Below are positions 167-18,076 of a stretch of 48,494 nt of DNA, piece by piece (the stretch's first letter is position 1; the number at the start of each line of letters is the position of its first letter). The position numbers were made by a program, and so were the translations under genes. A model generated the notes under the pieces. It was not told where the DNA came from. It saw nothing but the letters and a program-made list of their open reading frames with translations, and searched no databases. Origin of the DNA: Pseudomonadales bacterium (lineage in GTDB: Bacteria; Pseudomonadota; Gammaproteobacteria; Pseudomonadales; Azotimanducaceae); the NCBI GenBank assembly GCA_022827905.1, contig JAJEIQ010000032.1, positions 1-48,494 on the forward strand, given 5' to 3'.

Positions 167-239
167 GCATTGAGCTATCCAGTGTTGATCGCTTGCAGCG
201 CGAAGCGGCGTTCGCCGCGGATTGCGGCCAAGGTGGCAT

Positions 240-1496
240 ATGGGTTCGACCATTGCAGAGAAGATTCTGGCCCGGGCGGCGGGGGCCACTGCCGTTGCCG
301 CCGGCGACGAGATTCTTGCTAAGCCGGACTTTGTCATCGCTTACGATTTCCCCGGCTACACCAACGTCATCTTCAAGCAGATGGAAGAGGACTTCGGCAT
401 TGACAAGGTCGCCGAGCCGGAGCGGTTTGCGCTGTTCATCGACCACATGGTTCCGGCCGTCTCGCCCGAGGAGGAGGACCTGCACCAGAACACCCGGGAC
501 TGGGGGGCGAAGAACGGCGTGCCGGTGTATGAGCGGCTAGGGATCGGACACCACGTTGCGTCTGAGTTGGGGTATGCGACGCCGGGCGCCTTTGTGGTGC
601 ACTTTGATGGCCACGTATCGCAGATGGGCACCTTCGGCACGCTCGCCATAGGCATTCGCCGGCATCTGCTCGAGGCGTTCGTCAACGAGCGCATCCAGAT
701 GCAGGTGCCGGCCACCGTGCGCGTAAACCTGCGCGGCGAGGCCCGCCAAGGCGTCATGGCCCGAGATGTCTTCCACCACATCGTGCGGGAACTTGGTCCC
801 GCCGCGTGCCGCTTTCAGGTGCTGGAGATCGGCGGCGAGGCGCTCGAGCACCTTTCCATCGACGGGCGGCAGACCATCAATTGCCTGGCCATGTTCACCG
901 GCGCCGTCACCGCCATCATGAACCCGGACGATCGTACGCTGCCGGTGGCCCTGGAAAGGGCGCGGCTCGACATCGAGCCGGTTTATTCCGATGCGGACGC
1001 GCGCTATTCGGTGGTTCACGACATCGACATCGACGCGCTGGAACCGGTCGTGGTGGTGCCGCCGAGTCCGCGCAACACCCAGAACCTGAAGGACTACGTC
1101 GGCACCGAGGTCCAGGTCGGCTACTTGGGCTCCTGCGCGTCCGGACGCTTGGAAGACTTGGAGATCGCCGCCAAGGTGCTCAAGGGCCAGCACATCAAGC
1201 CGGGCTTTCAACTGCATGTGGTGCCGACCAGCCAGGCGATCATGGAGGAGGCTTCCCGGCGCGGCTACCTGACCGACTTGATCGCCGCCGGGGCTTACGT
1301 CACCTCGTCCTCCTGCGACTACTGCTTCGGCCGCGCCGGCGTGATGACCGCGGGCCAGCGGGCCGTGTCAACCGGCACGCTGAACGTCCGGGGGCGGATG
1401 GGCAGCCCCGACTCCGAAATCTACATCGTCAACGCCGCGGCCGTCGCGGCCTCGGCGATAACCGGTGAAATCACCGATCCGCGAGACTATCTGTAG
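240..1496 (+). CDS. Aconitase/isopropylmalate-isomerase-family hydratase, large subunit (LeuC-like)
   Basis: This 418-residue protein is the [4Fe-4S] subunit of a two-subunit hydro-lyase of the LeuC/homoaconitase/dimethylmaleate-hydratase type, which moves or adds water on a di- or tricarboxylic acid. The three cluster cysteines are present: Cys299 in GSCASGR, and Cys359 and Cys362 in SSCDYCFG. The N-terminal acid/base motif usually DSHT reads DGHV (Asp123, His125). The C-terminal GRMGSPDSE and AITGEITDPR motifs are typical. The ATG at 240 follows an AAGGTGG ribosome site; an upstream in-frame TTG at 222 is less likely. It is the first of three co-directional genes with a LeuD-like subunit and an isocitrate-lyase-family enzyme. 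No leucine genes are nearby, and the pairing with a lyase suggests catabolism of a methylated malate-like acid (compare dimethylmaleate hydratase DmdA of nicotinate fermentation). The substrate is inferred only. Confidence 0.85.
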   Translation: MGSTIAEKILARAAGATAVAAGDEILAKPDFVIAYDFPGYTNVIFKQMEEDFGIDKVAEPERFALFIDHMVPAVSPEEEDLHQNTRDWGAKNGVPVYERLGIGHHVASELGYATPGAFVVHFDGHVSQMGTFGTLAIGIRRHLLEAFVNERIQMQVPATVRVNLRGEARQGVMARDVFHHIVRELGPAACRFQVLEIGGEALEHLSIDGRQTINCLAMFTGAVTAIMNPDDRTLPVALERARLDIEPVYSDADARYSVVHDIDIDALEPVVVVPPSPRNTQNLKDYVGTEVQVGYLGSCASGRLEDLEIAAKVLKGQHIKPGFQLHVVPTSQAIMEEASRRGYLTDLIAAGAYVTSSSCDYCFGRAGVMTAGQRAVSTGTLNVRGRMGSPDSEIYIVNAAAVAASAITGEITDPRDYL

Positions 1497-1506
1497 GCTG
1501 CATTGC

Positions 1507-2022
1507 ATGGCGCTGCGGAATCTTGAAGGCCGCGTGGCCTGGATGTTCGAAGCCGCCGACTTCGATGTCGATGAGATCGTTGGCGTCAAGAACATCAAAA
1601 TCCAGGATGTCGAAAAGCTCGCGGAAGTTGCCATGCGGACGTTCGATCCTGGGTTCCATGCCAAGGTGCAGGCCGGGGACCTGCTGGTCGGCAATCACAA
1701 TTTCGGCTACGGACACCCGCACTATCCGCCGATGATTGCGATGCGGCGTCTGGGCATTGCCGGGGTGATCGCCGAAAGCTTCTCGCCGGGCTATTGGCGG
1801 GGCGAGATCGCCATGGGCTTCCCCCAGGTTGCGTGCCCCGGAATACTGGCGGCGGTCAATCGCTGGGACCGGCTCGAAGTGGACTGGGCGGCTGGCGTCG
1901 TGCGCAACCTCACCGAAGGCACGAGTCTTGGCTTCGAACCGCTCGCGGTTGCCGACCGTCAAATGCTGGAGTCGGGCGGCCTGATTGGCTACCTGCACGC
2001 CCGCAGCGCTCAAGTGACTTGA
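1507..2022 (+). CDS. Aconitase-family small (swivel) subunit, LeuD-like, with altered catalytic loop
   Basis: This 171-residue protein has the size and position of the LeuD/DmdB swivelling subunit and starts 10 nt after the large-subunit gene. The region around residues 60-73, VGNHNFGYGHPHY, aligns with the family motif G-x-NFG-x-GSSREH. The Ser-Ser-Arg-Glu-His stretch is replaced by His-Pro-His-Tyr-Pro (residues 70-74). In aconitase this loop supplies the catalytic base serine and a substrate-carboxylate arginine, so chemistry or substrate must differ, or activity is lost. The downstream AGVIAESFSPGYWRGEIAMG stretch matches the usual (A)VIAxSFAxIFxxN region. An in-frame GTG at 1465 would overlap the upstream gene and is not favoured. 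The reading frame is intact and operon placement is kept, which argues against a decayed gene. Confidence 0.8.
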   Translation: MALRNLEGRVAWMFEAADFDVDEIVGVKNIKIQDVEKLAEVAMRTFDPGFHAKVQAGDLLVGNHNFGYGHPHYPPMIAMRRLGIAGVIAESFSPGYWRGEIAMGFPQVACPGILAAVNRWDRLEVDWAAGVVRNLTEGTSLGFEPLAVADRQMLESGGLIGYLHARSAQVT

Positions 2023-2041
2023 AGGGACAGGAATCAATCGT

Positions 2042-2911
2042 ATGAATGCCATAGGGAAAAGTGCAATTGCCGAAGCCGCCAAGGGCGGCCGGACCGTTTG
2101 GGCGGCCGGGGCATACGATGCGTTGTCGGCGCGGCTCATCGAGGAAGCGGGCTTTGCGGCGGCGATGACGACGGGGTTCGGCGTCTCCGCGTCCCATCTG
2201 GGCCAACCGGACCTGGAGTTGTACACCATGTCCGAGAATCTCAACGTGGTGGGCAACATCGTCGATTCGGTCACGATTCCGGTGATTGCGGACACCGACA
2301 CCGGCTACGGCAACGCCATCAACGTCATGCGCACAGTGCGGGAATTCGAGCGGGCCGGCGTTGCCGGCATGATCTTCGAGGACCAGGAATCGCCGAAACG
2401 CTGCCCGGCCGCGGCCAACCGGGTGGAGTTGCTGCCGCTGCCGGAGGGCGCCGCCAAGATTCGCGCAGCCACCCACGCCAGGCGCAACGAGGATGTGCTG
2501 ATTATCGCCCGCACCGATGCCATGGACGAAGCGGAGGCGGTGGACCGCGGCCAAGCCTACGTCGAGGCGGGGGCCGACCTGGTGCAGCCCATATCGAAGT
2601 GTTTCAGCGACTTCGATGGTTTGGTCCGGTTTCGGGAAGCGGTGCGTGTTCCGCTGTCGCTGCAGCTGCTGGGCTGGCTGGAAACCGACTTGACGCCCGA
2701 CCAAGTGGAGCAGGTGGCGGGGCTGGCCGTCTTTCCGCTGGTTGGGCTCATGACCGCGACCGCAGCGCTCCGGGCCAATCTAGGTGCGCTGGCCAAGCGG
2801 CGTTCGTCCACGCAGCTGCCCAACGAAGTGACGACGATGGGCGAATTCAAGTCGATCGTTGGCTTTGACGAACTCGAGGCCATGCAGAGCCGCTTTCTGG
2901 TCGGTCGTTGA
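2042..2911 (+). CDS. Isocitrate lyase/PEP mutase-family C-C lyase (2-methylisocitrate or 2,3-dimethylmalate lyase-like)
   Basis: This 289-residue TIM-barrel enzyme should cleave a 2-hydroxy-dicarboxylate by retro-Claisen/aldol chemistry, giving pyruvate or glyoxylate plus a carboxylic acid. Visible family motifs are AGAYDALSA (residues 22-30), the Mg-binding ADTDTGYG (83-90), EDQESPKRC (113-121) and ARTDA (156-160). Cys121 corresponds to the catalytic cysteine of true lyases, which excludes a PEP mutase. The usual K(K/R)CGH reads KRCPAAANR here, so the active-site loop is unusual. It follows the LeuD-like gene by 19 nt and probably acts on the product of that hydratase. Known precedents for a LeuCD-like hydratase plus such a lyase are dimethylmaleate/dimethylmalate in nicotinate fermentation and methylcitrate/methylisocitrate. 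Which applies cannot be read from the sequence. Confidence 0.85.
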   Translation: MNAIGKSAIAEAAKGGRTVWAAGAYDALSARLIEEAGFAAAMTTGFGVSASHLGQPDLELYTMSENLNVVGNIVDSVTIPVIADTDTGYGNAINVMRTVREFERAGVAGMIFEDQESPKRCPAAANRVELLPLPEGAAKIRAATHARRNEDVLIIARTDAMDEAEAVDRGQAYVEAGADLVQPISKCFSDFDGLVRFREAVRVPLSLQLLGWLETDLTPDQVEQVAGLAVFPLVGLMTATAALRANLGALAKRRSSTQLPNEVTTMGEFKSIVGFDELEAMQSRFLVGR

Positions 2912-2935
2912 GCTGAACAGGGGCGGCGAACGGAC

Positions 2936-3733
2936 TCAAGACGCTGCGTCGAGCGTCTCCCAGAGCCCGGCCACTAACTTCTGAAACCCATCGGTCGCGT
3001 GGAGGGCACGAACGTTGCGCGGCCTCGGCAGGTCGATGGGAACGTCGGCAACGATGCGGCCGGGGCGCGGCGACATGACGATCACCCGGTCGGACAGCGC
3101 TGCCGCCTCCGCCAGGTCATGGGTGACCAACACCACCGTGCTGGCGGAGACCTGCTCCCAGAGTTCGACCAGTTGGTCCTGCAGGTTGATCTTGGTCAGC
3201 GCGTCCAGTGCCCCGAAGGGTTCGTCGAGCATGACGAAGCGGCTGCGCAGCGAGAAGGTGCGGGCCAGCGCGACCCGCTGGCGCATGCCTTGGGACAGTT
3301 CGGCGGGCAGCGCGTGCTTGAAATCCCCGAGGCCGACTGATTTCAGCAGTTGCTCGACTTGGGGCGTGCGCTCGGCAGCATCGCCAATGCGGGTGGCTAG
3401 GGCGAAATCGACGTTGCCAAACGCCGACTTCCACGGCATCAGAGCGTCTCTGGCGAACATGCGGGCGGTATCGCGCCGGCCGGCTCGGGGCGGGCGGCCC
3501 GCCAGCCGCACGGCGCCGGTCTGCACGTTCAACAGACCGCTTAAGATGTCGAGCAGCGTCGTTTTGCCGCAGCCGCTCGCGCCGACCAAGGAGACGAACT
3601 GGCCAGCGGGGATCTCCAGGTTCAGGTTGCTAAGCGCTTCGACGGACTCATCGCCGCGCCCGTACGCATGGCTGAGACCGCGAATGTCGATGCCTTCCGG
3701 CGCCGACTCGGAGCCCATCGTGGAAGTCTCCAC
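2936..3733 (-). CDS. ABC importer ATPase, nitrate/sulfonate/taurine type (SsuB/TauB-like)
   Basis: This 265-residue ATPase energises the importer formed with the permease and lipoprotein encoded just upstream. It shows Walker A GASGCGKTT, the signature LSQGMRQRVALAR, Walker B FVMLDEPFGALD and the switch histidine in VLVTHDLAEAA, followed by the C-terminal MSPRPGRI typical of this subfamily. The start may be 3733 or the internal ATG at 3718. It is the last gene of a five-gene - strand operon hyuA-hyuB-permease-lipoprotein-ATPase, and it faces the lyase gene across a 24-nt gap. Family members import aromatic or aliphatic sulfonates, pyrimidine precursors, or N-compounds. The actual ligand is unknown. 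Confidence 0.9.
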   Translation of the reverse strand: METSTMGSESAPEGIDIRGLSHAYGRGDESVEALSNLNLEIPAGQFVSLVGASGCGKTTLLDILSGLLNVQTGAVRLAGRPPRAGRRDTARMFARDALMPWKSAFGNVDFALATRIGDAAERTPQVEQLLKSVGLGDFKHALPAELSQGMRQRVALARTFSLRSRFVMLDEPFGALDALTKINLQDQLVELWEQVSASTVVLVTHDLAEAAALSDRVIVMSPRPGRIVADVPIDLPRPRNVRALHATDGFQKLVAGLWETLDAAS

Positions 3734-3761
3734 CGCTTAGGACGCTGCGTCCATCGCCGGT

Positions 3762-4880
3762 CTATTGGCAGGCGCCGGCGCAAGTGGGTGCCTTGGCATA
3801 GACCACGTCCGCAAAGGGGATGCGTTGGTCGATCAGGTTGAATCGCAGCGCATAGGCGTTCCAGAGATCGATGGCGGCGGGGCTGATCCGGTAGCCCCAA
3901 TAGCGCCGGTAGTTGCGCACCATCCGCTCCATGACCTCCTTGTTCTGGGCTTCGGACAACGCGGCGACCGGCGCGTGGCGGCTGGCTAGGTCGAGCATCT
4001 CCTCATGATTTTCGGGCTCGCGAATCCAGTCGATGGCGTCGCGCATTGCGGCGATGAAGGCATCGGCGCGGGCGGGTTGGTCGCGGACCAATGCACCCCT
4101 GGCCACCCATCCCGCGTACAGCCCCCGGTACTGCAGGGCGGGTGGGCCGTCGTCGGCAAGGACCAGCACTGGGCGCGCGAGGTCGAGGGTTTCCAGGAGT
4201 TCGGGTACCGGAGCGAAGGTCATCTGCGCGTCCACGGCACCCGCCTGCCAGGACGACAGCGTGGTCGCGGCGCTGCCGGTGGCGACGAAGTCGACGTCTT
4301 CCACGGCGAGGCCCGCTTCCTCAAGCATCAGCACCGCAGCCAAGTAAACCGTGCTGCCGATCGCGTTGACGCCGATGCGGCGCCCCGCCAATTGCCGAAC
4401 GATCGCGTCGCGGCTCTGCTCCGGCAACGGCACGTGAGTGCCGACCGGCAGGTCAGTGCCGACCGGCACGTGATTGCCGACCACCAGGGTGACGTAGTTG
4501 GTGCTTTCGTTGCCGACGAGGTACTTGAGGTCGATGCCTTTGTCGATGTTGGCCAGGACCAAGTCCGGTGCGCTTTCCACCACGTCCATGCTGCCGCCGA
4601 TCAGCGCCGCGATGGCCGCCGACGAGGAGTTGGCCGGCAACCGCTCCACGGAAAGCCCCCGCTGTTGGAAGAAACCCTTCTCAACCGCAACGTGCACAGG
4701 CATCGAACTGTAGGCGCCAGTGAACACCTGAACGCGCAGCGGGCCGTTCTCGCGGCCCCCCTCGGCGCTGCAGCCGCCGATAAGGAGCAGGGCGGTCGCA
4801 GCCAGCCAGAGCCACCAGCCCTGGATCGAGGGCGTCCCGCCCTCGTCCGCAATCGAGTGGGTGAAGCTAGGCCTTCTCAT
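3762..4880 (-). CDS. Periplasmic solute-binding lipoprotein, NMT1/SsuA-like
   Basis: This 372-residue protein captures the substrate of the importer. A hydrophobic stretch (residues 22-36) ends in the lipobox LIGGC with Cys37, so it should be a lipoprotein anchored to the membrane. The mature part begins with GPLRVQVFTGAYSSMP and continues with AVEKGFFQQRGL, the usual NMT1/SsuA opening. I chose the ATG at 4880 because it overlaps the permease stop as ATGA; an ATG at 4901 is possible. Two oddities are present. Residues 12-18 (EGGTPSI) are encoded by a copy of the 19-bp palindromic repeat, which lengthens the signal peptide's n-region. Residues 134-151 are three tandem hexapeptides (VGNHVP, VGTDLP, VGTHVP) made by an 18-nt tandem repeat. 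Confidence 0.88.
   Translation of the reverse strand: MRRPSFTHSIADEGGTPSIQGWWLWLAATALLLIGGCSAEGGRENGPLRVQVFTGAYSSMPVHVAVEKGFFQQRGLSVERLPANSSSAAIAALIGGSMDVVESAPDLVLANIDKGIDLKYLVGNESTNYVTLVVGNHVPVGTDLPVGTHVPLPEQSRDAIVRQLAGRRIGVNAIGSTVYLAAVLMLEEAGLAVEDVDFVATGSAATTLSSWQAGAVDAQMTFAPVPELLETLDLARPVLVLADDGPPALQYRGLYAGWVARGALVRDQPARADAFIAAMRDAIDWIREPENHEEMLDLASRHAPVAALSEAQNKEVMERMVRNYRRYWGYRISPAAIDLWNAYALRFNLIDQRIPFADVVYAKAPTCAGACQ
4429..4482 (-). repeat. 18-nt tandem repeat, three units, inside the lipoprotein gene
   Basis: The units at 4429-4446, 4447-4464 and 4465-4482 read GGCACGTGAGTGCCGACC, GGCAGGTCAGTGCCGACC and GGCACGTGATTGCCGACC on the + strand, so they differ at only a few positions. Because the unit is a multiple of three it adds whole hexapeptides and can change copy number without a frameshift. 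Confidence 0.9.
4827..4845 (+). repeat. REP-like 19-bp palindrome, copy A (GTCCC loop)
   Basis: The sequence CGAGGGCGTCCCGCCCTCG has 7-bp arms CGAGGGC/GCCCTCG around a GTCCC loop. It is preceded by GGAT, as in the copy at 26067-26085. It lies within the lipoprotein gene and codes for EGGTPS in the signal-peptide region. Confidence 0.85.
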
Positions 4881-5644
4881 ACCGCGATTGGAGCGTGCCA
4901 CTTGGCGATGGACCGTTCGATTCGGGACATCGCTGCCGTTAAGGCGGTGGTAATGAGGACCAGGGCGATCAGGGTGGCGAAGACGCCGTTCGGATTGAAG
5001 GTGTTCGAGTAGTAGCTCACCAGGGTGCCCAGCCCCTTGCCACCGGCGATGAGTTCCGCGGTGATGACGCCGAGCACCGTGTAGATCATGCCCAGGCGCA
5101 GGCCCGCGAAGATGGCTGGCAGCGCACTCGGCACGATGATCTCCACGAAAACCCGCCAGCGGGGAATGGCTAGGCTGCGGGCCAATCGCAGGTGGTCCGG
5201 ATCGGTCGATTTGGCGCCCGCCATGGTGTAGGAAAGCAGCACGAAGTACATGATGGAGACGCCGGAAGCGACCTTCTGCTCCATGCCGATGCCGAACCAG
5301 AGAATGAACAGCGGGATCAGCGCCACCCGGGGCAACGCATTCAAGGCGTCGATGATGGGCGCCGCCAGCCGCTCCGCGGTCGGGAAGGCGGTCATGAGCA
5401 ACGCGGTCAGCAACGCAAGCACCGCGCCCAGCACGAAGGCGATGAACACCGCCTCCAAGGTGATCACGGCGGCCTTGGGAAAGGTGCCATCAACCACCAG
5501 TTCGATGAAGTCCAATAGAAACTCGGATGGTTGGCCGATCAGCCCGCGGGGCAGGGCGCCGCTCTGGGCTGCCGCCTCCCAAGCGACGCCCCAGACGGCG
5601 ATCAACAGCAGGCGGCCGCCTGCCAAGGTGAGTCGTTCCTTCAT
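4877..5644 (-). CDS. ABC importer permease, SsuC/TauC-like
   Basis: This 255-residue inner-membrane protein has about six hydrophobic segments (for example LLLIAVWGVAWEA, AVFIAFVLGAVLALLTALL and TLIALVLITTALTAAM). A cytoplasmic coupling helix, LARSLAIPRWRVFVEIIVP, follows MAGAKSTDPDHLRL and should contact the ATPase. I chose the ATG at 5644, preceded by GGAG seven bases upstream; a longer frame begins at 5716 and would overlap hyuB. Its stop overlaps the lipoprotein start by 4 nt, so translation is probably coupled. It forms one transporter with its two downstream neighbours. Being in an operon with HyuAB implies that the imported compound is the HyuAB substrate or its precursor. Confidence 0.9.
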   Translation of the reverse strand: MKERLTLAGGRLLLIAVWGVAWEAAAQSGALPRGLIGQPSEFLLDFIELVVDGTFPKAAVITLEAVFIAFVLGAVLALLTALLMTAFPTAERLAAPIIDALNALPRVALIPLFILWFGIGMEQKVASGVSIMYFVLLSYTMAGAKSTDPDHLRLARSLAIPRWRVFVEIIVPSALPAIFAGLRLGMIYTVLGVITAELIAGGKGLGTLVSYYSNTFNPNGVFATLIALVLITTALTAAMSRIERSIAKWHAPIAV

Positions 5645-5690
5645 GGTGAAGCTCCGCAAAATGACGCTTGACCGGCCTGTTGCTGGCCGT

Positions 5691-7661
5691 TCACGCCCAA
5701 TCCGCTTCCAGTTCACTGAGCAGCTCTAGCACTTCGTCCGCAGTGGGGTTGGGAGAGAGGCGCTCCACGGTGCGCAGGTAGGCCCGCTCCTGGGCGATCC
5801 TTTGGCCGTTGGGCGGGAATTTCCGGCACCAGTCCGCGATGGCTGCGTAGGCCTCCTGCCAGTCGGCCTGCCACTGGGACCGGCCGGGTCCGAAATCCAC
5901 CGCGACAGGGTGCCCGGACTTCCCGGAACGGGCGCGCAACGCGGCTGTGGCCGGCCCATCGACTTGGCCATCCTCAGTCAGCGCCACGCCGTATAGCGCG
6001 CGTCCGCGCTCGGCGGAGACCAGCCCGTCCAGGATGTCGTGGCGCACCCGCTCAGGATGGCGCTCCAGCGGGTCGCCGAAACCGCCGCCGCCGCCGCCGC
6101 CGACAATCAGAACGTCGCCGGGGTGCGGCCGATAGACGGCCTGCTTGCCGATGTTGTCCTCCGTTCCGTCCGCTTTGCGAACCAGGCTGAAGCTCGGCAC
6201 TGCGGCCTTGCCGCCGTCCACGCCCCAGGCCGCGAATTTATGGCGGTCCTTGCCACGGGTGACCACGGTCGCCCGGTGGTCGGTCAACTCGAATGCGTAC
6301 TCGACGCCGAATCCGCCCCGCAGCCGCCCGGCGCCTTCCGAATCGGTGCGTAGCGCGAACCGATGCACCCGCACCGGCGCCTCGGCCTCGAGCACCTCGG
6401 TGGGAATGTTGCGCAGCGCCGCGGTCGGGAAGTCGGTTGCGGAAATGCCATCGAGACCGAGGCCGCCTCCGGAGCCGCCGACCACCGCATTGGCTGCCAC
6501 CACCCGGGTGGCGCCGGACAGGTCGGCGGTGGATACCGAGATGACGGCGAGTTGTCCCGCCCCGCCGGCCGGGAGGCCACCGGGAATCGCGCTCGCCAGC
6601 GCGCCGAGGGTCATGTCGTGAACCCGCATGGAGGTCACCACGCGCATGCCGCAGGCGGCCGGAAACGAGGCGTTGACAAAGGAGTGTTCGGGCAGCGTCA
6701 AGTCGATGCAGCGCAGCATGCCGGCATTGAAGATCCGGCCCTCAGTGGCAGTGACCACGAAGTTCATGATGGCGAGGGACAGCATGGGGTGGTGCTTCTG
6801 GCCGCCCGCGGGCATATTGATGGCTGAGGCCACTTGTGGGTCCGAACCGGAGAAGTCCAGCTCCACGGTGCCGTCGCCCCTGGCGGTGACCACCAGCTTG
6901 GCCCGAATGGGCACGGGGCTCACGTAGTTGTCCTCCAGGTACTCGACGAACTCGTAGGAACCGGCGGGAATCTCCTTGAGCACCGCCTTGGTGAGGGCCT
7001 CCGCCCGGTAGAGGCTCCCGTACATGGCGCTGCGCACGGTCGCCGGATCGTAGCGGCTGACCAGTTGCCCGAGCCGTTCCTCGGCCCGGTTCAGGCCGGC
7101 CACCGCGGCGCCCAAGTCGCCCCAGTTCATTTCCGGGCTGCGGCAGTTGCTGGAGATCATGGCCACCACGTCCTCGTTGAGCACCCCCTCCCGGTACAGC
7201 TTGGTGGAGCGGATGCGCAGCCCCTCCTGGAAGACCTCCCCGTTTGTCCCGTCGATGCTGCCCGGCACCTTGCCGCCGATATCGCTGCAGTGGATGAACG
7301 CCCAGGCGAAGCACAGCAGTTCGCCGTCGGCGAAGATGGGCTTCAAGAAGTAGACGTCATTCAAGTGGGTGACCATGCCGGCGGTGGTGTAGGGATCGTT
7401 GGTGATGGCGACATCGCCGGGCGCCCAGTCGGCGAAGGCTTCGATGCCTGGCGCCATGGGGACGCCCACCAGCGCGGTGACGCCCGTGGCATCGACTACC
7501 GCGAACTGCTCGCCCTCCGGGGTCACCAGGGCGGTGCCGAAGTCCAGGGTTTCCTTGACGAAGGTGGTGTGCGCCGAACGCTGGATGATCCAGCCCATTT
7601 CATTGACGATGGCGCGGAACAGGTTGGCGAAGATCTCCGTGTTGATGGCAGCCGAAGTCAT
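5691..7661 (-). CDS. hyuB: Hydantoinase/oxoprolinase-family B subunit
   Basis: This 656-residue protein is the HyuB partner of the gene just upstream. The family comprises ATP-dependent N-methylhydantoinases, 5-oxoprolinases and acetone or acetophenone carboxylases, which phosphorylate an enolisable carbonyl to open a ring or carboxylate a ketone. It starts INTEIFANLFRAIVNEMG and carries the conserved DFGTALVTPEG and ITNDPYTTAGMVTHLNDV blocks, as well as HPMLSLAIMNFV. A glycine run, GGGGGGGFGDP, matches the family's GGGGxGDP signature. The last 100 or so residues (from about 555) extend past the usual core. The substrate is unknown, but a lactam, hydantoin or similar ring fits the island's other genes. 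The 25-nt gap to hyuA suggests a single transcript. Confidence 0.9.
   Translation of the reverse strand: MTSAAINTEIFANLFRAIVNEMGWIIQRSAHTTFVKETLDFGTALVTPEGEQFAVVDATGVTALVGVPMAPGIEAFADWAPGDVAITNDPYTTAGMVTHLNDVYFLKPIFADGELLCFAWAFIHCSDIGGKVPGSIDGTNGEVFQEGLRIRSTKLYREGVLNEDVVAMISSNCRSPEMNWGDLGAAVAGLNRAEERLGQLVSRYDPATVRSAMYGSLYRAEALTKAVLKEIPAGSYEFVEYLEDNYVSPVPIRAKLVVTARGDGTVELDFSGSDPQVASAINMPAGGQKHHPMLSLAIMNFVVTATEGRIFNAGMLRCIDLTLPEHSFVNASFPAACGMRVVTSMRVHDMTLGALASAIPGGLPAGGAGQLAVISVSTADLSGATRVVAANAVVGGSGGGLGLDGISATDFPTAALRNIPTEVLEAEAPVRVHRFALRTDSEGAGRLRGGFGVEYAFELTDHRATVVTRGKDRHKFAAWGVDGGKAAVPSFSLVRKADGTEDNIGKQAVYRPHPGDVLIVGGGGGGGFGDPLERHPERVRHDILDGLVSAERGRALYGVALTEDGQVDGPATAALRARSGKSGHPVAVDFGPGRSQWQADWQEAYAAIADWCRKFPPNGQRIAQERAYLRTVERLSPNPTADEVLELLSELEADWA
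6082..6102 (+). repeat. (CCG)7 trinucleotide run in hyuB
   Basis: Seven uninterrupted CCG units on the + strand encode seven glycines on the - strand just before FGDP in HyuB. Since relatives have a shorter or interrupted glycine run, the tract may be prone to slippage. The frame would be kept. Confidence 0.8.
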
Positions 7662-7686
7662 CTGCGATCCTTGGCGTTCATTGGCT

Positions 7687-9747
7687 TCACTCCCGGGTGA
7701 CGATCAGGGCGCCGTTGCCGGCGAGGGTGAGAACCCATCCGTCGGGCACCAACGTGGTTGTGTCCATCTGCTCGATGATGGCGGGGCCTTCGATGCGGCT
7801 GTTCGCCGCGATGCCTTCGCGGGCGAACACCCGCGCCTCCACCTGATCGCCGCGCAGCCGGATAGTGCGGGTGGTTGGCGCCGGGGAGCGCTCCGCGGCC
7901 GCTGCCACCGCCGGGGCCGGTGTCGGCAGGTAGCCGGTCAGGTGGGCGCGCAGTTCCTGGAGCCAGACCGCGGCGTCGTCGTGGCGATGGCCGAAGGTTC
8001 GCTCGTGGGCGTCGTGAAACGCCCGGCGAATCGCTTCGGCGTCGCCCTCCGCCAACCAATCCTCCTCGAGGGATACGGTCACGTCGTACCCTTGGCCTGC
8101 GTAGCGCATCTCCGCGGTGTACTCGACGATGGTGCGCTGCACCGCCAGGCTGGCGGCTTCCCGTTCCAGCCAAGCCGCGGATTGACTGCGGATGGCATGG
8201 AATGCCTCGGCCAGCGCCGGTGCGTCCAGATCGGCGAGGTTGCGGTACACGGGCTGCACGAAGTCGCCCTCCAAGTCGGCTTGGGCCGCGCCCAGGGCGC
8301 TCAACGTGCCCGGCACCGGCGGAATGAGCACGCAATTCACATAGGCCGCTTCCGCGACCAGCGCGGCCACCAATGGCCCGGCACCGCCGTAGGCCACCAT
8401 GCGGAAACGGGATAGATCCACGTCGCGACGCGCCAGGACGCTGGTGGATTCAGCCGCCAACATGGCGGTAGCGACCTGTATGGCACCGTCCGCCACCTGC
8501 TCGGCCGGCAAGCCGACTTTGCGGCCCACTGCCGCCAGGGCTTGGCGCCCCCGTTCCGATTGCAGTTTCAAGCGGCCACCGAGCGGGCGTTCGGGATTCA
8601 GCAATCCGGCGATCAGAAAGGCATCCGTCATGGCGGCAACCTTGCCGTCACCCAAGCCGTAGCAGGCGGGCCCGGGGTCCGCGCCGGTGCTTTTCGGGCC
8701 GATCTTCAAGGCTCCGGTGGCGTCCGCGTCGATGATCGAGCCGCCGCCCGCGCCGATTGCGGAAACGGCAACCGTGGGCACCAGAATGGGGAAGTCGGCC
8801 ACCCTTTCCTGAGCGCTCAGCACCGGACGTCCGCGTCGCACCACACCGATGTCGGCACTGGTGCCGCCCACGTCCAAAGTCATCAGATCCGCAGCCGGCC
8901 AACCGGCATCGGCGGCCGCCGCGGCGGCCCCGGCCACGCCTGCGGCCGGCCCCGACAGCAGCGCGGTCACCGGACGCTCAGCCATGGTGGCGAGCAGTTC
9001 CATGCCGCCGTTGGAGCGCGCGCCGCGCGCTGGGGTGCGCACGCCGCGCTCCGCCATGCCGCTGACCAGCAGCGCCACTTGGCGTTCCACCGCCGGGCGA
9101 ATGTGGGCATTGACCAGAGCCAGGGTGGCGCGCTCAAACTCCCGGGCTTGGGGCCACACATCCGAGGACAGCTCCACCGCCAATCCCGGCAGCGCCTGTT
9201 CGATGGCGGTCCGGGCTACTCGCTCATGGGCGGGATTCCGGTAGCTGTGCAGGAAGCAGACCACTAGGATTTCGCAGCCCTGCGCCTGCAGGCGTCGCGC
9301 GGCGCAAACCGCCGACTCCGCATCCAAGGCTTCCACGGCTCGACCATCGGCATCAATGCGCTCCCGCACTTCGGCAACCCGCCGTCGCGGAACCAAGGGC
9401 AGCGGGCGGCGGGAGTCGTAGCGGGCGGGCTGCGGGACGGTCAGGCGGGCGATCTCGAGAACGTCGCGAAACCCGGCGGTCACCAGCATTCCGAGTTTTG
9501 CACCGGATCGCTCAATCAGGCAGTTAACCGCCACCGTGTTGCTGTGGGTGTGGCTCATCGATGCCCAAGCCTCGTCGGAGCAGCCCGACAGGTGCCGCAG
9601 CTCATCGACGCCCTGTAAGGTGCTTAAGCCCGGCTGGTCCGGTGTGCTCGCCACCTTGATGCAGCGCAATTCGCCGTTCTCGCCGTAGAACGCCAAGTCC
9701 GTGAAGGTGCCGCCGACGTCAACGCCGAGGCAGGGTTTGGCGCACAT
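7687..9747 (-). CDS. hyuA: Hydantoinase/oxoprolinase-family A subunit
   Basis: This 686-residue protein is the ATP-binding subunit that pairs with HyuB. The N-terminal phosphate-binding loop GVDVGGTFTDL (residues 8-18) is of the ASKHA type. Further motifs are SHTHSNTVAVNCLIERSGAK, LLSGPAAGVAGA and DVGGTSADIGVVRRG, then a C-terminal domain with YGGAGP. Length and motif order match N-methylhydantoinase A. The ATG at 9747 is the first gene of the - strand operon and diverges from the TonB-receptor gene across 137 bp. An enzyme complex of this type plus a dedicated importer supports uptake and ring opening of a specific small molecule. Carboxylase members of the family usually carry a third subunit, not seen here, so a hydrolase role is more likely. 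Confidence 0.9.
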   Translation of the reverse strand: MCAKPCLGVDVGGTFTDLAFYGENGELRCIKVASTPDQPGLSTLQGVDELRHLSGCSDEAWASMSHTHSNTVAVNCLIERSGAKLGMLVTAGFRDVLEIARLTVPQPARYDSRRPLPLVPRRRVAEVRERIDADGRAVEALDAESAVCAARRLQAQGCEILVVCFLHSYRNPAHERVARTAIEQALPGLAVELSSDVWPQAREFERATLALVNAHIRPAVERQVALLVSGMAERGVRTPARGARSNGGMELLATMAERPVTALLSGPAAGVAGAAAAAADAGWPAADLMTLDVGGTSADIGVVRRGRPVLSAQERVADFPILVPTVAVSAIGAGGGSIIDADATGALKIGPKSTGADPGPACYGLGDGKVAAMTDAFLIAGLLNPERPLGGRLKLQSERGRQALAAVGRKVGLPAEQVADGAIQVATAMLAAESTSVLARRDVDLSRFRMVAYGGAGPLVAALVAEAAYVNCVLIPPVPGTLSALGAAQADLEGDFVQPVYRNLADLDAPALAEAFHAIRSQSAAWLEREAASLAVQRTIVEYTAEMRYAGQGYDVTVSLEEDWLAEGDAEAIRRAFHDAHERTFGHRHDDAAVWLQELRAHLTGYLPTPAPAVAAAAERSPAPTTRTIRLRGDQVEARVFAREGIAANSRIEGPAIIEQMDTTTLVPDGWVLTLAGNGALIVTRE

Positions 9748-9884
9748 CGCTCAATGTAGGACGCTTGACACGACGCTAGGATAAGCGCTTTCTTTTCCTT
9801 GTGCTATTCTTTGACGGATTGCAGGACTGCTGAGTGGAGTCTGCTGGGTGGTTCTGGAAAAACCATTGATTAGGGAGAGGGTCC
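9748..9884. promoter_or_regulatory. Divergent intergenic region between hyuA and the TonB-receptor gene
   Basis: This 137-bp gap must hold the promoters of both transcripts. A TTGACA lies at 9765-9770 on the + strand, but no convincing -10 stands 16-18 bp downstream. The receptor has a strong purine-rich ribosome site, AGGGAGAGGG, just before its ATG. No clear operator palindrome is visible. Confidence 0.4.
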
Positions 9885-12203
9885 ATGATCTTGGAGTACG
9901 TTCGCGCCACTAGCACCGCAATCGCCGTTCTGCTGCTCGCGTCGGCCACAGTCGCCAACGCCGAGGAGGCGGCTCCATCGAGCGGGGTCATCGAGGAAAT
10001 TGTGGTGACCGCCCAGAAGCGGGCCCAGAGCATCCAGGATGTGCACATCTCGATGAACGCTTTCACCGAGGAGGACATCGCAGACCTCGGGTGGACGGAC
10101 ATCACCCAGGTGGCCAACCAGTCGCCGAACCTCGACATCAAGTACGTGTGGGGCAATTCAATGCCCGTTTACACCATCCGCGGCGTCGGCATGCAGAGCT
10201 TCCAAGCCAGCGACACGCCGAGCGTCGGCCTGTTCATCGATGAGGTGTTTCAGACCTCGATGGCCGTCATGGGCGCCCACCTGTTCGACATCGAGCGCGT
10301 GGAAGTGATCAAGGGGCCGCAAGGCGATGTTTTCGGGCGCAACACCAACGGCGGCGCAGTCAGCTACTTCACCCGCAAACCTAGCCGCGAGGGGAACGGC
10401 TACGTGCGGGCCAGCTATGGCAAGTGGGACCGTTCGGAAGTGCAGGCCGCCTTTGGCGGTCCGCTGAGCGAAACCCTGTCCGGGCGCGTCAGCGTGATGT
10501 CCATCCAGCAGGCCGACGGCTGGGTCCACAACCGGACCACCAACGACGATGTCGGGGAGGTGGACATTCTGTCGGGCAGGGTGCAGCTGCTGTGGGAACC
10601 CGCCGATGACCTAAGCGTCAACTTCAAGCTGTTCGCCAGCCGAGACCGGTCGCAGCCGGTTTACTTCCAGCACATCGGCTATCGGGAAAAGGGCAATATA
10701 TTCGCACTGTGCCAAGCGTACCTTGATGACCGCCTCGATCCGCATACCTGCGTCGATTTCGCCGGATACAGCGATACTGACGGCGACCCGTACGCCGGTG
10801 ATTACACCAATGATCTTTCGACTTTCATCAATGACGAGGAAACGCTGAAAAACGACAATCTCGGCGGTACGCTCACCATCGAAAAGGACTTCGGCAACAT
10901 CAACCTGCTTTCCGTGACCAGCTACCAGACTTACGATCGGTGGCAACCCAAGGAGTCTGACGCCAATCCCGGTTTGTATGTGGACTTTCTCTTCACCAGC
11001 GAAATCTGGGCCTTTTCGCAGGAGGTGCGGTTAACCTCAAACTACGAAGGTCCGTTCAACTGGATACTCGGTGCAAACTACGGCCGGGACGAAGTCGCCG
11101 AACGGCCCGGTCGAATCGGCTACCTCGGTGCCTATCTGGGCGCCCTTGGTTCGCCGATCGACACCATCAACCTGACCTACGAGCAGGATCGGGAGAACAT
11201 CGCGGGCTACGGCCAGATTACGTTGGACCTGAGCGAAAACTGGCGGGTGAGCGCCGGAGCCCGTGTGCTGCGGGATGACCTGACGTTCAAGCAGAAGGTC
11301 GATATATTCGCGGCGGGGGGCGTCTATTTGTTTGGCAACCAGTTGCCGCAGTCCTTCGTCAATCCAGACGGCAGCGTGACGGAGCTTGACGGCAAACTGG
11401 ATGACACCGCGGTAACTTGGCGGGTAGCGGTTGACTTCATACCCAACGACAACATCTTGATCTACGGCAGCGTCGCCACGGGATACAAGCCGGGCGGCTT
11501 CAATGCCGGCTTCAATTTCAACCCCAGGCAATACTTGCCTTTCTTTCATGAGGAAGTCACTGCGTTCGAGGTCGGTCTGAAGTCCACCTTTGCCAACGGC
11601 CGGGCCGTCTTCAATGCGGCAGCCTTCACCTACAACTACGACGACATGCAGGCGACCACCGCGCGCGTGTTCAACGACGTTGTTTTTACGTCGCTGGACA
11701 ACTTGGCGCAGGCCGATGTCGATGGGTTCGAAGCCGACCTGCATTTGCGTCCCGTGGATGCGCTGGACATAAAGCTCGGCGTCAGCATTCTGGACACCAA
11801 GAACAACGACCCCAGAGCCAACTTCGACGGGCCGACGGGCGACTCGCCCCGCAAACTCGCCAATTCTCCGGAGCAGACCTTCAACGCAGCGGTCTCGTAC
11901 ACCATTCCGCTTACCAACGGTGGCGCGGTACGGCTGTTCGGTGACTACTACTATCAGGGCGATCATTTCAAGGAGATAGTCAACATCATCCCGCTGGAGA
12001 TCAACCAGGAGCAATTGAATGCCCGGTTGACCTACATTGCGCCGAGCGGCAATTGGGACATCGGCTTTTGGGCCAAGAACCTCACCGATGAGGTTTGGGT
12101 TGCCGACACGTTGAACGGCCCGGTGTCGTTGGGCTGGGGCGTATGGGTGTACGGGCCGCCGCGCAGCTTCGGCGCCACCCTCAACTGGCGCTGGGGTCAG
12201 TAG
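9885..12203 (+). CDS. TonB-dependent outer-membrane receptor
   Basis: This 772-residue receptor has a signal peptide (hydrophobic STAIAVLLLASATVANA, cleavage near residue 26). A TonB-box region IEEIVVTAQKR follows, and then a plug domain with IRGVG, DTPSVGLFIDEV and the typical VEVIKGPQGDVFGRNTNGGAV. The rest is a beta-barrel ending FGATLNWRWGQ, close to the usual aromatic C-terminal signal for outer-membrane insertion. The length is normal. Such IAQKR-type receptors with no siderophore genes nearby often take up carbon sources. Here it lies between the Hyu/ABC operon and the dioxygenase/cyclase genes, so it probably brings the island's substrate across the outer membrane. It ends 9 nt before the convergent dioxygenase gene. 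Confidence 0.92.
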   Translation: MILEYVRATSTAIAVLLLASATVANAEEAAPSSGVIEEIVVTAQKRAQSIQDVHISMNAFTEEDIADLGWTDITQVANQSPNLDIKYVWGNSMPVYTIRGVGMQSFQASDTPSVGLFIDEVFQTSMAVMGAHLFDIERVEVIKGPQGDVFGRNTNGGAVSYFTRKPSREGNGYVRASYGKWDRSEVQAAFGGPLSETLSGRVSVMSIQQADGWVHNRTTNDDVGEVDILSGRVQLLWEPADDLSVNFKLFASRDRSQPVYFQHIGYREKGNIFALCQAYLDDRLDPHTCVDFAGYSDTDGDPYAGDYTNDLSTFINDEETLKNDNLGGTLTIEKDFGNINLLSVTSYQTYDRWQPKESDANPGLYVDFLFTSEIWAFSQEVRLTSNYEGPFNWILGANYGRDEVAERPGRIGYLGAYLGALGSPIDTINLTYEQDRENIAGYGQITLDLSENWRVSAGARVLRDDLTFKQKVDIFAAGGVYLFGNQLPQSFVNPDGSVTELDGKLDDTAVTWRVAVDFIPNDNILIYGSVATGYKPGGFNAGFNFNPRQYLPFFHEEVTAFEVGLKSTFANGRAVFNAAAFTYNYDDMQATTARVFNDVVFTSLDNLAQADVDGFEADLHLRPVDALDIKLGVSILDTKNNDPRANFDGPTGDSPRKLANSPEQTFNAAVSYTIPLTNGGAVRLFGDYYYQGDHFKEIVNIIPLEINQEQLNARLTYIAPSGNWDIGFWAKNLTDEVWVADTLNGPVSLGWGVWVYGPPRSFGATLNWRWGQ

Positions 12204-12212
12204 GTCTCAGTC

Positions 12213-13205
12213 TCAGATGGTCCCTACGCGCCTGCGCGCCTCGGGAAAGGCTTTGCGGGCATCAAAGTCGGTGCCTTCGGGACCCCACCCATAGAAGATG
12301 TCGGATCCGACCAGACGCGCGAACCGTTCGTCATTGCGGTCGAGAATCTCCTGGGGCAGGCACTCCCGATAGGCCTCCTGGGGGCGCAGCCACTTGTTGC
12401 AGAAGTACAGGATCAGATTGACGCGCAAGCCCGGCGCGGAGCGGGGCACTGCGCCGTGCCAAGTGTTTCCCGGCCAGACCGCCAGTGATCCGGCGGGGGC
12501 TTCCACGACGGCAAGGTCCGGCGGATTGCGGACCCTCAGGTCCCGGCCTTGGGCCACGGCCGCTTCCGCTTGGGCCCGGTCCATGCCGTCCAAGTGGAAA
12601 TTCTCCTCGGGCAAGGGGTGCCGTTGCAGCCGATGGCTGCCAGGGATGAAGCACAGCGCCCCGTTTTCCAAGGTGTAGTCCGTCAGCAGGTAGGTGGCAT
12701 TGCACACCAGCGGCAGGGGCGCGGGATGAAAGGTCTGGTCGGTGTGCAGCATCAGCGGCAAGGGGCCGCGGCCCTTGATGCGCCCGCCGCAGGTGGACAG
12801 CACGGCGTCGCTGCCCAGCAGATAGGCCACCATGGCCTGCACGACAGGATTCATCAGCGCCTGCTCGAACACTCTGCCCTTGGCCAGCAGGAAAGGTTGG
12901 CGCTCGACCGGATCCACCGCGTTGTCGTGGGTGGCGCCGTCTTCCATGTCGGGCCATTGCCCGCGGGTTTCCTTCGAAATTTCGCAGATACGGCGCAGGA
13001 GTTCCTGGGCCAGCTTCGGCGGACCGACCCGTTCCGGCGGGATGACGGTGTAGCCCAGGGATTCGATCTCCGCGACATGGGACTCGAGTCCCAGCGCCTT
13101 GATCTCGGCGAAGGCCTTCTCCGCCGCAGCCGCCGATGGCGCCCGGCCCATCTCCAAGGCCGCCTGGGTCACTTTGCTGCGCTGATTCAACGTGCTTTGA
13201 CTCAC
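12213..13205 (-). CDS. Phytanoyl-CoA dioxygenase (PhyH)-family Fe(II)/2-oxoglutarate oxygenase
   Basis: This 330-residue enzyme should hydroxylate an organic substrate using Fe(II), O2 and 2-oxoglutarate. The metal facial triad is visible as His154 and Asp156 in MLHTDQTF and His250 in NTWHGAVPRS. Arg261 in GLRVNL is placed to bind the 2-oxoglutarate carboxylate. The segment ENGALCFIPGSHR (residues 180-192) is a PhyH hallmark. The N-terminal ~50 residues are predicted helical and do not match the core fold. It lies 42 nt downstream of the cyclase gene, on the same strand, so the two are probably co-transcribed. Its role would be to activate or demethylate the imported compound before ring opening. 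The substrate is not deducible. Confidence 0.85.
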   Translation of the reverse strand: MSQSTLNQRSKVTQAALEMGRAPSAAAAEKAFAEIKALGLESHVAEIESLGYTVIPPERVGPPKLAQELLRRICEISKETRGQWPDMEDGATHDNAVDPVERQPFLLAKGRVFEQALMNPVVQAMVAYLLGSDAVLSTCGGRIKGRGPLPLMLHTDQTFHPAPLPLVCNATYLLTDYTLENGALCFIPGSHRLQRHPLPEENFHLDGMDRAQAEAAVAQGRDLRVRNPPDLAVVEAPAGSLAVWPGNTWHGAVPRSAPGLRVNLILYFCNKWLRPQEAYRECLPQEILDRNDERFARLVGSDIFYGWGPEGTDFDARKAFPEARRRVGTI

Positions 13206-13247
13206 CGCACCTGCCCACTCATGGATCGGGACTCAAGCGGAAGTTCC

Positions 13248-14171
13248 CTAGAGAACCGCCACCGGACTGGTCAGCGACCCCGTTGCCCGCTCCATGTGCA
13301 GGGCGGTGACGACGAACAGAAAATGGTGCCGTTGCTGTTCGACGCAGATTTCGCTCAGCGATTCCAAGTCCATGTTGTGCAGCAGGTGGATGCCGTAGTA
13401 CGCGAGGCAAAGCGTATGCACGGGCGAGCGCACGATGTGTCCGTAGGGTGAGGGGAACACGTCGCCCCCGCAATCGGTGGCCAGCACGCTGACGTCAAGG
13501 CCGCCAAGCACCTCCACGCACTCGGGATGCAGCCCTTGCCAGGTGCCGTGCCGGCAACTGTCGTCGGTGGGCGGCAAGCCGTCCTCTAGGGTGGCGCCCG
13601 TTCGGATGAGGGCAGCATCCCCCGGCTCAAGCTCGGACGCCGCCGACTCGATCTCCTCCGGCCGGACATATTCGCCGGGATGCAGGTGCGACACCCCGCG
13701 GCCGCGGGCCACATCGATCAGAACGCCGCGGGTCACTATGGCGCGCGCGTTGCTGATGCTGGCGCGCTTCACCCCGTCCTCCTTGGTGACCAGGTCGCCG
13801 AAGTCGATGCCGTTGAAGCCCTTGCCGCTGTGGCCGACGTGGGCGAGCGCATCGAGGTGCGTGTTCACCATGCCGTGGGTGCGGTAGGCGACCTCATCCG
13901 CAGAGTTCAGGGATTCCGGCCGGTCCGGCTCAAGATCCCATGCGCCGGCGCTGAGCATGGTGTGCTCGAAACACACGTCTCCCCGAATGGGCTCCCGGTC
14001 GGTCACCGGACGGCTCAGCGACACCACCTGCCCGGTGGCAACCGTGCCGATGCCCCGGCGGGTGACTTCGGGCGTCACCAGATTGAGCGTGCCGAGATCA
14101 TTCGGCCAGCGATTCCAGTTGCCCGTATGCCCAGGCCAAGTCGCGGGGTCTGGGAGTGTCTCCTCACTCAT
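13248..14171 (-). CDS. Cyclase-family metal hydrolase (kynurenine formamidase/isatin hydrolase type)
   Basis: This 307-residue protein belongs to the PF04199 cyclase family, metal-dependent hydrolases acting on amide or lactam bonds such as N-formylkynurenine or isatin. The metal-binding HxxxDxxxH region is represented by NTHLDALAHVG (His105, Asp107, His111). Further family features are the opening WPNDLGTLNLVTPE, VSLSRPV and VLIDVARGRGVSHL, and the late DCGGDVFPSPYGHIVRSPVH. The first part of the metal motif (usually HxGTH) reads HGMVNTH, so the site is slightly divergent. It begins the cyclase-dioxygenase pair. With HyuAB it gives the island two different C-N hydrolases, which supports a nitrogenous ring as substrate. 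Confidence 0.85.
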   Translation of the reverse strand: MSEETLPDPATWPGHTGNWNRWPNDLGTLNLVTPEVTRRGIGTVATGQVVSLSRPVTDREPIRGDVCFEHTMLSAGAWDLEPDRPESLNSADEVAYRTHGMVNTHLDALAHVGHSGKGFNGIDFGDLVTKEDGVKRASISNARAIVTRGVLIDVARGRGVSHLHPGEYVRPEEIESAASELEPGDAALIRTGATLEDGLPPTDDSCRHGTWQGLHPECVEVLGGLDVSVLATDCGGDVFPSPYGHIVRSPVHTLCLAYYGIHLLHNMDLESLSEICVEQQRHHFLFVVTALHMERATGSLTSPVAVL

Positions 14172-17917: not shown

Positions 17918-18076
17918 GTGGACGAATCCCCCGAAAGCCGGACCGACAGCGCACCGGAATCCAAACCGGGCAGCCCGTGGCGGTACATCATTATGTGGAC
18001 GACGTTTGGCGTCACGCTAGTGGTCACGGTCGTCGTCGTCGTCCAAGCCATCCTGAAGACTACGGGCTTCGACTAG
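17918..18076 (+). CDS. Small single-pass membrane protein (52 residues)
   Basis: Starting at GTG 17918, the predicted product has a polar, acidic N-terminus (MDESPESRTDSAPESKPG). One hydrophobic helix follows (YIIMWTTFGVTLVVTVVVVV) and then a short tail ending KTTGFD. The layout is that of a bitopic small protein with the N-terminus inside. A TATAAT box ends 7 nt upstream, giving a leaderless or nearly leaderless mRNA. The final 60 bp overlap, antisense, the C-terminal codons of the sugar-kinase gene, where a GTCGTCGTCGTC run encodes valines on one strand and aspartates on the other. The function is unknown. Confidence 0.5.
   Translation: MDESPESRTDSAPESKPGSPWRYIIMWTTFGVTLVVTVVVVVQAILKTTGFD

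Follow-up and report, generated by a model that had tools for sequence, protein, structure and literature searches.

A Pseudomonadales gene block for the probable opening of nitrogen rings or similar compounds, with an unusual hydratase/lyase pair as its last steps

What compound might a bacterium degrade with an importer, an oxygenase, two candidate ring-opening hydrolases, a hydratase and a lyase encoded side by side? This question is raised by the first 14 kb of contig JAJEIQ010000032.1 from the Pseudomonadales bacterium assembly GCA_022827905.1; the window, by which we mean the whole stretch of DNA analysed, is 48,494 nucleotides long. An initial annotation, made from the sequence of the window, had described these genes as one uninterrupted block and suggested that it takes up and degrades an N-heterocycle. 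The first part of this description is confirmed: a Pfam or NCBIfam family could be assigned to all eleven genes, each where the annotation had placed it, and no unrelated gene was seen inside positions 222-14171. We propose that the block is a catabolic module whose substrate, probably a nitrogen ring or something similar, is opened and finally processed by an unusual pair of a hydratase and a lyase.

The hydratase has two subunits. The gene for the large, LeuC/aconitase-type subunit (240-1496, plus strand; PF00330, 203.8 bits) lies in an open reading frame (ORF) that opens at 222, with its likely start at 240. The nearest solved relatives of LeuC are 4nqy and 4kp1, the large subunit of isopropylmalate/citramalate isomerase. 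Our alignments were made from length-filtered ORFs of related loci and hold, besides the window sequence, 25 of 41 LeuD, 25 of 52 LeuC and 27 of 59 lyase sequences. When aligned to 4nqy, the iron-sulphur cysteines C305, C365 and C368 of LeuC are invariant across 26 rows, as befits a hydro-lyase of the aconitase superfamily, and D74-H75 and D129/H131 are invariant as well. The LeuD-like small subunit (1510-2022, plus strand; ORF opening at 1465) gave no match in a Pfam search at E 1e-3, and was identified by TIGR02087 (99.5 bits, just under the cut-off of 108.95) and by its profile, which matches the solved subunit 3vba at E 2.5e-38. It displays GHPH at the position where GSSR, the motif expected of a 3-isopropylmalate dehydratase small subunit, stands in all four solved small subunits found by profile. 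In aconitase, the serine of this motif acts as the base and the arginine binds a carboxylate of the substrate; if these roles hold, their replacement by GHPH means that the hydratase has changed its base. Isopropylmalate/citramalate isomerase (4nqy/4kp1 and 3vba, which we take to be Methanocaldococcus structures) thus provides the best solved matches for both subunits, and the window enzyme shares its cysteines, but it differs in GHPH for GSSR and its subunits score under every NCBIfam cut-off listed, including those of the 3-isopropylmalate dehydratase equivalogs (LEU2, 286.6 against 610.65 bits; leud, 82 against 245.85). By cut-off or motif, the predicted hydratase is not the leucine isomerase.

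The lyase (2042-2911, plus strand; PF13714, 149 bits, over the cut-off) belongs to the isocitrate lyase (ICL)/phosphoenolpyruvate (PEP)-mutase superfamily: its predicted structure (predicted local distance difference test score, pLDDT, 91) has that fold, and residues D57, D84, D86, K119, C121 and R157, which include the metal and catalytic positions, are invariant in 28 rows. Foldseek returned 3eoo, a methylisocitrate lyase, as the best PDB match by E-value and 5unc as the best by template modelling (TM) score among the 50 matches listed. The window lyase resembles the methylisocitrate lyase PrpB in fold (TM 0.79-0.87 for the PrpB-type rows among the matches listed) and in the positions of the metal site and catalytic cysteine, but its loop reads KRCPA in place of KRCGH, a nearly invariant glutamine aligns with an asparagine of PrpB, and it scores 173.5 bits against the PrpB model TIGR02317, whose cut-off is 354.4. 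The Gly-His loop and this asparagine bind the succinate half of the substrate in PrpB. Because both are replaced, the window lyase may, if those roles hold, keep the keto-acid half-site and have an altered acid half-site. By cut-off or motif it is a putative lyase other than methylisocitrate lyase.

These comparisons bear on the simplest objection to a module, that the hydratase and lyase are ordinary duplicates of leucine and methylcitrate-cycle enzymes that lie by chance beside an unrelated lactam-hydrolase operon. We find this scarcely credible and rejected it: the homology to LeuC/LeuD and PrpB that would favour it is distant, with all three scores far under the equivalog cut-offs given above, the active-site motifs are replaced, the linkage is conserved as described below, and the window genome has three further aconitase-family genes. 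The same cut-offs and motifs agree with the initial annotation, in which the pair serves another purpose than the methylcitrate cycle.

LeuC, LeuD and the lyase recur together. Among 80 loci, the best 80 of 147 found by patterns derived from the window lyase and so biased toward its close kin, the three stand together in 71; gene calls in these loci are our own choices from ORFs and codon scores, and contig ends truncate many of the loci. A LeuD match was obtained in 72 loci, and FG[Y/F]GHPH is present in 70 of them; the exceptions are L048, where a single contig base precedes the match, and L079 from Desulfofundulus, which has GSSRE. LeuC carries CD[Y/F]C[F/Y]GR in 69 of 71 loci. Of the 80 loci, 75 encode a lyase with PK[R/K/T]C and then P or A, and three encode one with K[R/K]CGH. 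In a tree of 52 lyases (the window plus 51 hand-picked loci from L003-L102), the 34 PKxC[P/A] rows, including that of the window, form one side of a branch with support of 98/97 which appears in 100% of 200 bootstrap trees. Judged by these signatures, the triad is conserved and constitutes a putative family of its own. It occurs across Alpha-, Beta- and Gammaproteobacteria and Bacillaceae, and the plasmid records examined annotate its genes as, for example, 3-isopropylmalate dehydratase and isocitrate lyase/PEP mutase family protein. LeuD of the window kind was found in the window's own genome alone among 369 genomes sampled from its class, in a survey that scored some but not all candidates of a first look, and in four of 200 genomes of its family, all four from the same genus; the module is therefore patchy in this lineage.

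A comparable pair is found in the nicotinate fermentation of Eubacterium barkeri, where DmdAB is 2,3-dimethylmaleate hydratase and Dml is 2,3-dimethylmalate lyase. From their general description, these are likewise an aconitase-type two-subunit hydratase and an ICL/PEP-mutase lyase, by which an alkylmaleate is hydrated and then cleaved; the difference is that no nicotinate genes were recognised in the window block. The Desulfofundulus triad (L079, 7991-10692) has the ordinary GSSRE together with KKCGH, and its lyase falls outside the branch of the window lyase; this triad is a candidate member of the classical dimethylmaleate/dimethylmalate type. In one article, dml is placed within a putative methylcitrate cluster (PMC9804861).

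Which genes supply the triad with substrate in the window? HyuB (5691-7661, minus strand; PF02538, 456 bits) and HyuA (7687-9747, minus strand; PF01968, 219 bits) are the metal and ATP-binding subunits of an enzyme resembling ATP-dependent lactam and hydantoin hydrolases. HyuA has the ATP-binding motifs DVGGTFTD, DVGGT and GADPGP, and the putative metal ligands H99, D102 and H124 are present in HyuB when aligned to CapB. The best solved matches of HyuB are 7hk5, an N-methylhydantoinase (E 8e-64), and 6yra, a caprolactamase (4e-57). The window proteins thus share domains, ATP motifs and metal ligands with CapAB and N-methylhydantoinase, but HyuA and HyuB score 414 and 215 bits against the caprolactamase models (NF050156/NF050157), with cut-offs of 1000, and remain under the cut-off of every NCBIfam model matched. 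Carboxylases share these features: in the part of PMC8453981 that describes the CapAB structure with its ATP motifs and metal ligands, the motifs are common to carboxylases and hydrolases. HyuAB could on this ground act like the ATP-dependent acetone/acetophenone carboxylases, supplying a carboxylated substrate to the later steps and opening no ring, and HyuA and HyuB do match acetophenone carboxylase models, with 187 and 92 bits. We regard this as very unlikely given that the hydrolase models CapA and CapB score higher, that the acetophenone carboxylase subunit is matched at 3e-23, far behind 7hk5 and 6yra, and that no further carboxylase subunit was recognised in the block. HyuAB is therefore predicted to be hydrolase-like rather than carboxylase-like.

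The second candidate ring-opening enzyme is a cyclase-family (PF04199) metal hydrolase (13248-14171, minus strand; 45.6 bits, cut-off 23.1), in which THLDALAH (104-111) is presumably the metal motif; 5ibz is its sole solved relative at E 0.01. The cyclic imidase HxnM has been compared with PgdA- and PuuE-like proteins, and the accessible part of that article gives no link between HxnM and PF04199 (PMC9304392). Next to the cyclase lies a PhyH-type Fe(II)/2-oxoglutarate oxygenase (12213-13205, minus strand; PF05721, 68.2 bits) with HTD at 154-156 and H250. Uptake genes complete the block: an ATP-binding cassette (ABC) importer composed of an ATPase (2936-3733, minus strand; PF00005, 98.6 bits), an NMT1/SsuA-type substrate-binding protein (3762-4901, minus strand; PF09084, 53.4 bits, and PF13379, 49.5 bits; by eye, a lipobox-like start) and a permease (4877-5716, minus strand; PF00528, 81.6 bits), and a TonB-dependent receptor (9885-12203, plus strand; PF00593, 103 bits, and PF07715, 42.5 bits). 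Strands and gaps divide the block into four transcription units rather than a single operon: leuC-leuD-lyase is convergent with the minus-strand unit hyuA-hyuB-permease-substrate-binding protein-ATPase, whose genes overlap or lie within 30 bases of each other; this unit is divergent from the TonB gene, which is in turn convergent with the minus-strand cyclase-PhyH unit.

The linkage of these units is conserved within the genus of the window genome. Relatives of the lyase (at least 84% identity), cyclase (at least 88%), PhyH (at least 77%) and HyuB (at least 77%) are present in the same four of nine genomes (G000, G002, G005 and G008), and the other five have distant paralogues at best; this co-occurrence gives a Fisher value of 0.008, to be read with the caution that the four carriers may be one clade. 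In G002 these genes all share one 17-kb contig (L132), with a major facilitator superfamily (MFS) gene between TonB and PhyH. In G005 and G008 the cyclase lies on a contig separate from that of the triad, and in G005 some 39 kb lie between it and PhyH. On its cyclase/PhyH contig, G008 carries a second set: HyuA2, HyuB2, a second PhyH, a phosphotriesterase (PTE)-family hydrolase, an MFS transporter and a flavodoxin-fold reductase (L131). The window genome has HyuB2-MFS-PTE-PhyH2 on another contig (C50; L130, 1-14094), and the arrangement in G008 suggests that the island of the window may be split by rearrangement or by assembly.

Outside the genus, we searched 47 other lyase-bearing genomes, of which 45 have the whole triad in the stretch examined and two (L070 and L073) lack LeuCD there; L037 was left out. 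Window-type HyuB (55-62% identity) was returned from three of them, on the triad contig in each: an alphaproteobacterial metagenome-assembled genome (MAG; BroJett030, G069) with HyuA-HyuB-cyclase-substrate-binding protein-flavin adenine dinucleotide (FAD) oxidase about 1 kb from LeuC, a Rhodoferax MAG (G079) with substrate-binding protein-ATPase-HyuA-HyuB-cyclase-permease-OYE-FAD oxidase-IclR-LeuC, and Pseudaminobacter arsenicus (G096; L146) with HyuA-HyuB-cyclase-permease-substrate-binding protein-ATPase some 17 kb from the triad. These three and the gammaproteobacterial G058 and G062 also have the cyclase (54-78% identity). In G058 the triad, importer, OYE, a HyuA paralogue, the cyclase and a TonB receptor share one 22-kb contig (L161), and in G062 the cyclase adjoins a HyuB paralogue on a contig other than that of the triad (L160). 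The triad, an NMT1-type importer and the cyclase thus coincide in nine alpha-, beta- and gammaproteobacterial genomes, seven of which have HyuAB orthologues and two more distant HyuA/HyuB copies. In G069 and G079 there is, near the importer, a further HyuB-HyuA pair adjoined by a HyuA-type protein of 1244-1252 residues (L141, 13594-17328, 1244 residues; L143, 8324-12082, 1252 residues), perhaps a HyuA-HyuB fusion.

The rate of these clusterings is above chance. The cyclase was detected in five of the 47 genomes and in none of 368 other genomes of the window's class (Fisher 1.5e-5), a class to which most of the 47 do not belong and in which not every candidate of a first look was scored; the thresholds were E 1e-60 for the 47 and 1e-80 for the background, and the best match in each of the five carriers also passes 1e-80. 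Seven HyuB copies lie around the triad, in six of 47 loci, where 0.84 were expected (p 2.8e-5); the two counts rest on different thresholds, tblastn at E 1e-15 for the observed copies and matches at E 1e-30 for the expected number. Because the background differs in class composition and the genomes are related, these p-values are indicative. The initial annotation had assumed that the LeuCD-like, ICL-like and HyuAB genes act together and would stay linked in relatives, and we do find them linked, in varied gene orders: in the same four genomes of the genus, and as HyuAB, cyclase and importer on the triad contig of three distant genomes.

Several observations weigh against the module proposed here. 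Most of the lyase-bearing genomes lack window-type HyuB (44 of 47) and the cyclase (42 of 47), so neither is essential to the triad. Five loci (L067, L070, L073, L077 and L078) have a PKxCP lyase and no LeuCD match in the stretch examined, and the lyase can therefore occur without an adjoining hydratase. The alpha- and betaproteobacterial stretches examined yielded no relatives of TonB or PhyH, and no characterised close relative was found for any enzyme of the block. By approximate counts over the 80 loci, a metallo-beta-lactamase (MBL)-fold, lactonase-like hydrolase or a tripartite ATP-independent periplasmic (TRAP) importer lies near the triad in 39, and HyuA in 10. HyuAB is thus one entry route of several and a minority partner of the triad. 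The earlier interpretation keeps its linkage and its non-canonical hydratase and lyase, whereas N-heterocycle chemistry in the form in which it was stated is not supported by these frequencies; an N-heterocycle is a plausible substrate. In the two Cupriavidus loci (L070 and L073), the lyases carry the motif and are flanked on both sides by genes that cluster with a TctC-type binding protein.

The company that the triad keeps elsewhere may point to lactones. Its neighbours in the 80 loci include IclR regulators (35), MBL-fold hydrolases (25), GlcD-like FAD oxidases (22), Liv-type substrate-binding proteins (21 and 13) and TRAP importers (14), and plasmids of Azospirillum (among them AZO_p2 of A. 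lipoferum 4B) and Variovorax SRS16 share, by their public annotation, a core of MBL-FAD oxidase-triad-Liv. The substrate could accordingly be a lactone or butenolide: a lactonase would open a hydroxylactone, the GlcD-like FAD enzyme would oxidise the product to a substituted maleate, and hydration and cleavage would follow, with the window cyclase as the lactonase and HyuAB as a side activity. Besides the MBL and GlcD-like genes themselves, the solved relatives of the MBL proteins fit this scheme, as they include organophosphorus/methyl parathion hydrolases, a reconstructed lactonase and an acylhomoserine lactonase; so do loci L022 and L039, in which a GlcD-like oxidase of another type adjoins HyuAB and the cyclase, and the PTE-family gene near the second HyuA/HyuB in relatives. 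For the window, we nevertheless consider a lactone somewhat doubtful: HyuB copies, sometimes several, are enriched around the triad, and we know of no lactone that requires an ATP-dependent HyuAB enzyme.

With moderate confidence, we favour a catabolic module in which rings are opened and a substituted maleate is hydrated to a malate that the lyase cleaves to a 2-oxo acid and a carboxylic acid. The TonB receptor and NMT1-type importer would take up the compound, and the PhyH oxygenase may activate it. ATP-dependent HyuAB and the cyclase-family hydrolase would open a C-N or lactone ring to yield a substituted cis-enedioate, i.e. a substituted maleate, which the iron-sulphur LeuC-LeuD enzyme, with His-Pro-His for Ser-Ser-Arg, would hydrate. 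Retro-aldol cleavage of the resulting malate by the ICL-family lyase would release pyruvate or glyoxylate as the 2-oxo acid. The order of the steps, the maleate/malate node and the nitrogen-ring substrate are inferred. AMP-ligase and acyl-coenzyme A (CoA) dehydrogenase genes are repeated neighbours of triads, as are CoA-transferase genes judged by eye; the released acid may accordingly be longer than acetate. The simplest account of the varied neighbourhoods is that they share one intermediate, a substituted maleate, at which many carriers would arrive from lactones and those with HyuAB from C-N rings. The initial annotation knew of no described pathway with this combination of genes, and our search of the open PubMed Central literature likewise found none.

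A more specific proposal, which we think unlikely, is that the triad is an undescribed hub for the aerobic breakdown of alkylated maleates with a His-Pro-His hydratase, and that in the window it ends an imide or lactam route, for example for maleimides derived from bilins, haem or chlorophyll. Once HyuAB and the cyclase had opened the maleimide, the hydratase would form a 2-methyl-3-alkylmalate, from which the lyase would release pyruvate and a short acid. The presence of several HyuAB enzymes in one cluster would fit a substrate bearing two or more lactam or imide rings, and bilins are one class of this kind; no support for the bilin/maleimide idea was found in the open literature searched. 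If the favoured module is correct, the triad is a new end-point for the degradation of alkylated ring compounds and the changed hydratase motif extends the known range of aconitase-type enzymes. The alternative entry modules should converge on one intermediate, and comparing them is therefore a direct way to the substrate class.

Two other groups of ORFs near triads were considered. A family of 540-residue proteins lies near the triad in ten loci (L017, 10916-12535, and nine others) and ends in conserved Cys- and His-containing motifs. For this family (c21, with marine-type triads) there was no solved relative and no convincing Pfam or NCBIfam match, and its model is poor, with a pLDDT of 42.8. 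A Pfam search of the first member stayed empty even at E 10, and the others gave only three weak matches (best E 0.13), so we dropped the idea that these are ring-cleaving proteins like NicX/M29. The neighbour cluster c17 has no family match and runs antisense to importer genes; high GC content probably produced these ORFs artefactually, and the cluster was not used.

The first base of the window is also that of its contig (G000:C21:1), so the region left of LeuC is out of view. On the right, the minus-strand genes at 14496-16960, a cytosine-5 DNA methyltransferase and a 400-residue protein with no family match, look unrelated and seem to mark the edge of the module; the two resemble a restriction-modification pair. 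Farther on (18017-20973, minus strand), an APH-like kinase ORF (18017-19435) overlaps a GH20 hexosaminidase ORF (19024-20973) by about 400 bases on the same strand when the longest ORFs are read.

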